From: Candidatus Zixiibacteriota bacterium
GTDB taxonomy: Bacteria > Zixibacteria > MSB-5A5 > GN15 > FEB-12
Length of the DNA stretch: 64,000 nucleotides
Direction: 5' to 3'
Assembly (NCBI GenBank): GCA_022571845.1
Contig: JACZXB010000002.1
Span: forward strand, 107,979-171,978
The position numbers and the translations under genes are program-made. Numbering within the stretch: the first letter of the stretch is position 1; the number at the start of each line of letters is the position of its first letter. Below, piece after piece: positions 2,640 to 63,430 of this stretch. Under the pieces are notes generated by a model. The model was not told the DNA's origin. It searched no databases and saw only the letters and a list, made by a program, of their open reading frames with translations.

Positions 2640-2668
2640 GGCAGAACCGCTAAAGGGTTCTGCCCTAC
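2640..2668 (-). repeat. REP element copy 1 (GTAG foot + GGCAGAACC/GGTTCTGCC hairpin)
   Basis: ggcagaaccgctaaagggttctgccctac; reverse strand reads GTAG-hairpin. Confidence 0.9.
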
Positions 2669-3470: not shown

Positions 3471-3499
3471 GGCAGAACCGCTAAAGGGTTCTGCCCTAC
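3471..3499 (-). repeat. REP element copy 2
   Basis: ggcagaaccgctaaagggttctgccctac. Confidence 0.9.
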
Positions 3500-16988: not shown

Positions 16989-17017
16989 GTAGGGCAGAAC
17001 CCTTTAGCGGTTCTGCC
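16989..17017 (+). repeat. REP element copy 4, just upstream of tRNA-Gly
   Basis: gtagggcagaaccctttagcggttctgcc. Confidence 0.9.
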
Positions 17018-17025
17018 AGATATAT

Positions 17026-17098
17026 GCGGGAGTAACTCAGTTGGTAGAGTCACAGCCTTCCAAGCTGTTGGTCGCGAGTTCGAGCCTCGTCTCCCGCT
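17026..17098 (+). tRNA. tRNA-Gly(TCC)
   Basis: Acceptor GCGGGAG/CTCCCGC; anticodon stem ACAGC-CTTCCAA-GCTGT; GTTCGAG T-loop. Confidence 0.95.
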
Positions 17099-17101
17099 TT
17101 T
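17065..17101. repeat. 37-bp direct repeat = tRNA-Gly 3' part, proximal copy
   Basis: CTGTTGGTCGCGAGTTCGAGCCTCGTCTCCCGCTTTT, identical to 18031-18067. Confidence 0.95.
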
Positions 17102-17132
17102 TTAATTTTCTTGGTTCTCAAGGAGTTGGTTA

Positions 17133-17396
17133 ATGACCATTTTCTATAAAGCTTTATTCTTTGTTTCCCCCTTATGGCTTATTTCATTTTTATTCTTTCT
17201 AGAAACAGTTGATATCGGTATCTTAGTATTTCTTGCATTACCAGGAATTTTTGTGAGCATGATTATTAGTGGAAACGTACACTATCACAGCATGCCTCTC
17301 GTTTTAATAGCCAATATTCTTATTGATTACTTATTGGTTCTATCCGTGCTCTATTTTCGACGAGAGAGAGCTAAAAGAAAAACAATTCTTCTTTGA
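17133..17396 (+). CDS. Small hydrophobic protein
   Basis: 87 aa, predicted TM segments, no family recognised. Confidence 0.4.
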   Translation: MTIFYKALFFVSPLWLISFLFFLETVDIGILVFLALPGIFVSMIISGNVHYHSMPLVLIANILIDYLLVLSVLYFRRERAKRKTILL

Positions 17397-17421
17397 AAAA
17401 GTGAATAGTGAATAGTAAACC

Positions 17422-17453
17422 GTAGGGCACCATGGCCCTTTAGCGGTTCTGCC
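17422..17453 (+). repeat. REP element copy 5 (variant), upstream of RAYT
   Basis: gtagggcaccatggccctttagcggttctgcc. Confidence 0.8.
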
Positions 17454-17474
17454 ATCATTTGAGATAAGTAAATC

Positions 17475-17933
17475 ATGTCGAAACTAATTAGACATTATTC
17501 GCCGGGGCAAATCTATTTTATAACCTCTGTAACTCATAATAGAGAAAGAATCCTCGTAGAAAATAGTGATATGTTTTGGGCAGGTATAGAAAAAGTAAAA
17601 AAAGACACTTCATTTGAATTGAGTGCCTGGGTGATAATGCCGGACCACTTTCACTTTGTGCTGGATCCGCTGGAGTCAGACTTATCCTCAGTTATGAAGC
17701 GCATTAAGCTGGCATTCGCTTATCGATTCAGAAAATCCAAAGGTCTTTATCGTGGTAAAGTCTGGCAAAGCCGCTTTTGGGATCACATTATTCGTGACGA
17801 TAATGACCTCAGCAGACATTTGGATTATATACACTATAATCCCGTCAAGCATGGCTTAGTGAGTAGCCCATTTGATTGGGAGCTGTCTTCAATTCATGGA
17901 TTTCTGAAGAGGGGACAGTATGAGTCCGATTAG
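17475..17933 (+). mobile_element. REP-associated tyrosine transposase (RAYT; Y1 transposase/IS200-like fold), truncated by an in-frame TAG
   Basis: PDHFHFVL (HUH) and HLDYIHYNPVKHGLV (catalytic Tyr region); flanked by inverted REPs; conserved in-frame tail continues to a TAG at 17976-17978. Confidence 0.92.
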
Positions 17934-17996
17934 GGGACTCGTAAAGCTCCAATTTTTGAAGGAAATTTTGGTGAGTAGGTTTTGGTCGTTATTTAT

Positions 17997-18025
17997 GGCA
18001 GAACCACTAAAGGGTTCTGCCCTAC
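17997..18025 (-). repeat. REP element copy 6, downstream of RAYT
   Basis: ggcagaaccactaaagggttctgccctac. Confidence 0.9.
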
Positions 18026-18030
18026 GTATT

Positions 18031-18067
18031 CTGTTGGTCGCGAGTTCGAGCCTCGTCTCCCGCTTTT
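18031..18067. repeat. 37-bp direct repeat = tRNA-Gly 3' part, distal copy (tRNA fragment)
   Basis: Identical 37 bp to 17065-17101; no 5' tRNA half present. Confidence 0.95.
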
Positions 18068-20646: not shown

Positions 20647-20721
20647 TTTGAGAGTGGACGGTATGGGTCCGATTGGGGGACTCGTAAAGCTCCAATTATT
20701 GGGGGAGATTTTGGTGAGTAG
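20647..20721 (+). pseudogene. RAYT 3'-end remnant
   Basis: FESGRYGSDWGTRKAPIIGGDFGE*; DNA closely matches 17912-17978 downstream of the resident RAYT. Confidence 0.8.
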
Positions 20722-20733
20722 GTTTTGGTTTTT

Positions 20734-20764
20734 GGCAGAACCACTAAAGGGCAAAGTGCCCTAC
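20734..20764 (-). repeat. REP element copy 7 (variant), adjacent to RAYT remnant
   Basis: ggcagaaccactaaagggcaaagtgccctac. Confidence 0.8.
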
Positions 20765-63286: not shown

Positions 63287-63353
63287 GTGATTTTCTTTTG
63301 GTCGCCCACTGCTTGCAGTGGGATCCTCTAATCCAGCAGAAATCTCCAGGCAC

Positions 63354-63382
63354 GTAGGGCAAAACCCTTTAGCGGTTTTGCC
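63354..63382 (+). repeat. REP element copy 8 (compensatory stem variant)
   Basis: gtagggcaaaaccctttagcggttttgcc. Confidence 0.9.
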
Positions 63383-63402
63383 TAATAGTAAAAGAAAGAT
63401 TT

Positions 63403-63430
63403 GGCAGAACCACTTCGGGTTCTGCCCTAC
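63403..63430 (-). repeat. REP element copy 9
   Basis: ggcagaaccacttcgggttctgccctac. Confidence 0.9.

Follow-up and report, generated by a model that had tools for sequence, protein, structure and literature searches.

A probable REPtron in Zixibacteria: a RAYT gene flanked by inverted copies of its cognate GTAG-tagged REP

When a gene for a REP-associated tyrosine transposase (RAYT, TnpAREP family) lies between two inverted REPs, is it the cognate transposase locus of that REP family, and is the whole block from REP to REP copied as a unit? These questions are raised by a locus in a 64,000-nucleotide stretch of DNA of Candidatus Zixiibacteriota, the whole of which is called the window here. 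The initial annotation of the window had inferred the first and, on the second, had proposed a candidate autonomous unit. The arrangement itself is already known, given that RAYTs were described as invariably flanked by inverted REPs, one on each side, and several cognate pairs were reported within one genome (Nunvar, 2010; PMC2817692), and that the name REPtron is in use for it (Di Nocera, 2013; PMC3733652). The GTAG repeats of the latter study were from Proteobacteria, Cyanobacteria, Chloroflexi and the PVC group, and Zixibacteria were not among them (PMC3733652). Our results indicate that the locus is very probably a REPtron, i.e., a gene for a RAYT/TnpAREP nuclease with its cognate REP on both sides in inverted orientation (REP-A; Table 1).

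Table 1. Positions of the RAYT gene, the REP-A copies and related features in the window
Feature	Position	Strand	Remarks
RAYT (REP-associated tyrosine transposase, TnpAREP family)	17475..17933	+	152 aa plus stop
HFH codons, residues 58-60 (HUH metal-binding motif)	17646..17654	+	alignment to 4er8
Catalytic tyrosine codon, Tyr118	17826..17828	+	corresponds to residue 115 in the alignment with 4er8
Left REP, genus-specific variant GTAGGGCACCATGGCCCTTTAGCGGTTCTGCC	17422..17453	+	retains the GTAG foot but not the canonical 9-bp stem
Right REP, canonical GTAGGGCAGAACCCTTTAGTGGTTCTGCC, inverted	17997..18025	-	ends in CTAC
Exact 37-bp copy of tRNA-Gly 3' half	18031..18067	+	original 17065-17101
Second RAYT unit, truncated (3' end of gene, spacer, right REP at 20734-20764)	20651..20764	+	86% identical to intact unit
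REP-A copy	16989..17017	+	8 bp upstream of tRNA-Gly
REP-A copy, left arm of non-coding inverted pair (REPIN-like)	63354..63382	+	
REP-A copy, right arm of the 63354-63430 non-coding pair	63403..63430	-	
Dispersed REP-A copy	2640..2668	-	
Dispersed REP-A copy	3471..3499	-	

The protein encoded by the window RAYT matched the NCBIfam profile REP_Tyr_transpos at 150 bits (cut-off 80) and also the Pfam profile Y1_Tnp, and E. coli TnpAREP (4er8) aligned with it over nearly the whole length (E 3e-28). By these profile and structure-sequence matches it has a Y1 HUH domain and a single catalytic Tyr, and the HUH motif and Tyr region noticed in the initial annotation are both kept. The score of the window RAYT with the IS200 family profile was 30 bits, under the cut-off of 55, and the protein is closer to the REP-associated transposases than to IS200. 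The dN/dS of the gene was about 0.1, showing that the protein is under purifying selection. In the RAYT tree, of which the deep branches were long and some supports weak, the window RAYT fell, together with E. coli TnpAREP and members from Chloroflexi, among GTAG-flanked RAYTs that form one clade, which agrees with the initial annotation on the phylogenetic point that it had put up for checking. A second clade (type D), whose members were associated with GGTNGCCCAC hairpins, was separate from that of the window RAYT.

Inverted GTAG-tagged REPs were present on both sides of the RAYT gene, and the initial annotation had placed them correctly. The non-coding REP pair to which it had compared their geometry is also real. 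It had further described both REPs as hairpins, which is accurate for the right REP, but the left one is without the canonical hairpin. The sequence of the left REP (GTAGGGCACCATGGCCC...) breaks the 9-bp stem, and its predicted folding energy was -5.1 kcal/mol (z -1.1), compared with -9.4 to -9.6 kcal/mol (z about -6) for canonical REP-A, including the right REP (-9.6 kcal/mol, z -6.3). This left variant belongs to a small set that occurs in 4 of 61 genomes, all in the window genus. The sister genomes G001 and G002 possess a canonical REP at the same position, so that at this locus the variant is a derived form, or the result of conversion, in the window lineage. The inverted repeat around the RAYT gene scored 17 in the window and 29 in both G001 and G002, while the shuffle maximum was 10. 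REP-A is dispersed through the 2.75-Mb window genome, with 15 exact copies plus variants versus 0 for a reversed control pattern. The window also contains other hairpin repeats, such as GGTCGCCCACTGCTTGCAGTGGGATCC (a type-D REP), found at 63310-63330 and elsewhere, and TCACCCTGAGC...GAAGGGTGA.

Three further RAYTs were identified in the window genome, on C7, C1 and C16, each between inverted hairpins of its own, which are GTAGGTCGAAACC, GTAGGTCAGGAC and GGTGCCCCACTGC, respectively. The four RAYTs are therefore paired one-to-one with four different hairpin families, two of which, those of GTAGGTCGAAACC and GTAGGTCAGGAC, together had 71 pattern matches in the genome. In the GTAGGTCGAAACC family (family B; L002, L267, L271 and others), GTAG is preceded by an additional, conserved TGA (TGAGTAG), so that the foot is longer than that of family A.

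The REP was also kept with the type of RAYT across genera. Among RAYTs of other genera that were at least 56% identical to the window RAYT, 5 of 6 loci had the same REP-A flanks, whereas 1 of 51 loci of less similar RAYTs did (Fisher p 8e-6). Within the window genus, the genomes with the RAYT had 15, 6 and 2 REP-A copies, and the one in which no close homolog was found had 1. REP-A stems were, however, also found in genomes without a REP-A-flanked RAYT found nearby, including G006 (7 copies), G015 (13 copies) and others. Across genera the presence or absence of REP-A thus does not track the RAYT cleanly, and REP-A was rejected as a cross-genus marker of the window-type RAYT. The four-to-four pairing, the contrast in REP-A flanks and the placement in the tree together uphold the view of the initial annotation that this is the locus of the REP family's cognate transposase.

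It is extremely improbable that the two REPs flank the RAYT by coincidence in a REP-rich region. REPs are indeed common nearby (those starting at 16989 and 63354), and in G034 (L346 2165-2795) two inverted REP-A copies lie 602 bp apart around DNA that contains no RAYT. However, GTAGG upstream and CCTAC downstream were found in 48 of 60 RAYT loci of relatives, the flanking inverted repeats exceeded the best shuffle in 31 of the 33 RAYT loci examined, and the spacing of the inverted REPs is conserved in all three congeneric species in which the locus was readable. The G034 pair was rejected as a further RAYT unit for lack of a RAYT inside; it could be REP-bounded cargo or a coincidence, and it shows that REPs on both sides are not enough to define a unit.

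On the model of E. coli TnpAREP, the window RAYT would bind single-stranded DNA at the GTAG-tagged hairpin, probably on the lagging-strand template, nick near the hairpin through Tyr118 with a metal held by HFH, and rejoin the strands, by which REPs and inverted REP pairs would be spread. If binding, cleavage and strand transfer proceed in this way, the dispersed REPs and inverted REP pairs of the window genome would be non-autonomous copies.

Similar to the REPtron of E. coli (TnpAREP/yafM with Y and Z2 REPs; 4er8), the window locus has a gene between inverted GTAG-tagged REPs that encodes a protein of the same family, with aligned HUH motif and Tyr. Different from E. coli, the REP sequence is unrelated to REP-A beyond GTAG, the E. 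coli REP needs a bulge in its stem while REP-A has a perfect 9-bp stem, and the 15 exact copies in the window genome compare with about 600 REPs in E. coli (PMC8266576). The RAYT-REP units of Stenotrophomonas and Pseudomonas are similar in that a genome encodes several RAYTs, each of them lying between inverted REPs cognate to it, and in the short perfect stem. However, the Pseudomonas RAYTs form a separate clade distant from the window RAYT, and REP copy numbers are lower in the window genome. With IS200/IS605 elements (IS608, ISDra2) the window unit shares a Y1 HUH transposase, hairpins near the ends and the idea of a guide tetranucleotide, but it differs from them by the IS200 score below cut-off, the lack of tnpB, the inverted hairpin ends and the low copy number.

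The order of dxs, NAD kinase, tRNA-Gly, the RAYT unit and an SBBP/dockerin-type gene is common to the window, G001 and G002, and it runs on to tRNA-Thr where the contigs reach that far. The same RAYT locus was found in all three congeneric species that could be read there; the contig of a fourth (G003) ends inside the NAD kinase gene, and its tRNA-Thr was not clearly located. Genera outside the window genus are too diverged for an exact empty site to be recognized. Given this common locus, the unit was not freshly inserted in the window genome. In most of the other genera of the family and order in which both tRNAs were readable, the gap between tRNA-Gly and tRNA-Thr was about 0.3-1 kb, which is too short for the insert, and the insert is thus a genus-level addition. 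The synonymous distance of the RAYT between the window and G001 was 0.045, compared with 0.21 for dxs and 0.36 for NAD kinase, and that between the window and G002 was 1.07, compared with 0.41-0.48 for the neighboring genes. The RAYT is thus out of step with its neighbors, which argues against simple vertical descent. Moreover, the block at 17331-18067 was about 97-100% identical to that of G001 (L120), apart from the left REP, which was only 90% identical with a 3-base gap, while the flanks had diverged (left, 63% identical; right, without good alignment). Judged from these alignments, the block looks like a product of recombination or transfer between lineages.

Whether such units are copied whole was examined with other RAYT units in the window and in relatives. 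The window itself holds a truncated second unit 2.6 kb downstream of the intact one and upstream of tRNA-Thr, of which the right REP is a variant. In G035, two type-D RAYT units (L144 892-1481 and 2730-3319), 1.8 kb apart, were 99.7% identical over 590 bp. The identity begins at GGGTAGCCCACAGC and stops at GCTGTGGGCTACCGG, all four flanks are unrelated, and the genes around the units are only remotely similar; a third, truncated copy is found nearby (L144 123-225). No empty site was found for these duplicated units. In G052 (L134, L135 and L137), window-type units were about 89% identical and homologous only from GTAG to CTAC, and the second copy was split over two contigs. A 1.6-kb perfect repeat in G029 was dropped as evidence of duplication, being tandem and possibly an assembly product. 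The closely compared genomes, including those of the sister contigs (Candidatus Zixiibacteriota), are MAGs, in which assembly error could mimic duplications. We regard REP-RAYT-REP as the heritable unit. As the caveat on MAGs applies to all genomes in question, we propose only tentatively, at somewhat less than an even chance, that this unit is occasionally copied whole in Zixibacteria, a proposal suggested by the two relatives and not by the window copy.

About equally probable, and likewise a little short of even, is that a domesticated host gene, present in single copy and fixed in its place, encodes the RAYT, which copies REPs only, that the flanking REPs landed there or persisted, and that the block never moves as a unit. 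Such a gene would be expected at a common locus in three species of the genus with one intact copy per genome, as is observed, and the degenerate left REP of the window genome also fits. It agrees, moreover, with the published view that REPtrons do not move as units and RAYTs are not self-copying (PMC8049555, PMC6006769). Evidence against it is, however, the homology in G035 and G052 that stops exactly at the hairpins between unrelated flanks, the truncated second unit within the window, and the discordance of the RAYT synonymous distances in both species pairs. The autonomous unit proposed in the initial annotation is therefore plausible for the kind, of which relatives show duplication from REP to REP, but less so for the window copy, which sits at one shared locus as the only intact copy and has a non-canonical left REP.

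A fragment of a tRNA gene lies beside the unit. The copy of the 3' half of tRNA-Gly(TCC) starts at a CT 5 bp past the right REP, and with its original it forms direct repeats of 37 bp, 966 bp apart, between which the RAYT unit and a membrane-type ORF of 87 aa are located. The copy was found in G001 with one mismatch and was absent from G002; it was not seen at the other RAYT loci examined, including those holding a tRNA. A general link between RAYTs and tRNA fragments was therefore rejected, as only the window genome and G001 show the fragment. Three origins are conceivable for the copy, which may be left over from an att site, be a plain duplication, or have been made by the RAYT.

The first of these origins would make the segment from tRNA-Gly to the copy (17065-18067) the remnant of a small tRNA-targeting integrative element or island, with the RAYT unit as passenger DNA. 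We consider this unlikely. An exact repeat that starts just past the anticodon loop does resemble attL/attR, and the gene content between tRNA-Gly and the RAYT varies, with the 87-aa ORF in the window and G001 and another gene in G002. However, none of the ORFs between the repeats encodes an integrase, G002 has no tRNA fragment although its RAYT unit occupies the same site, and the duplication is missing from the other tRNA-containing RAYT loci. With the tRNA 3'-end repeat present and an integrase gene absent between the repeats, the segment was not classified as a tyrosine-integrase island.

E. coli TnpAREP cuts at the dinucleotide CT (PMC8266576). A CT was present no more than 8 nt beyond CTAC in 14 of the 15 REP-A copies of the window genome (background 0.35), a pattern found after the fact. 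Elsewhere the frequency was about 21 of 43 in relatives and 37% for families B and C, and CT past CTAC was dismissed as a general site, since the pattern weakens or disappears in relatives and other families; it remains a local lead. A bolder reading, which we regard as rather doubtful although not quite as improbable as an integrative island, is that Zixibacteria REPtrons transpose whole, contrary to the published view, and that the RAYT may also join the CT at the unit end to other CT sites, giving the tRNA-Gly fusion. If true, joining of CT to CT would explain why the 3' half of tRNA-Gly is fused to the window unit exactly at CT.

The locus extends GTAG-tagged REPtrons to Zixibacteria, a little-known bacterial phylum. 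The four RAYTs with four cognate hairpins in one genome constitute a ready-made set for tests of specificity. Moreover, the hairpin-to-hairpin duplications make it a testable question whether RAYTs are immobile domesticated genes or REPtrons are still transposing as units.
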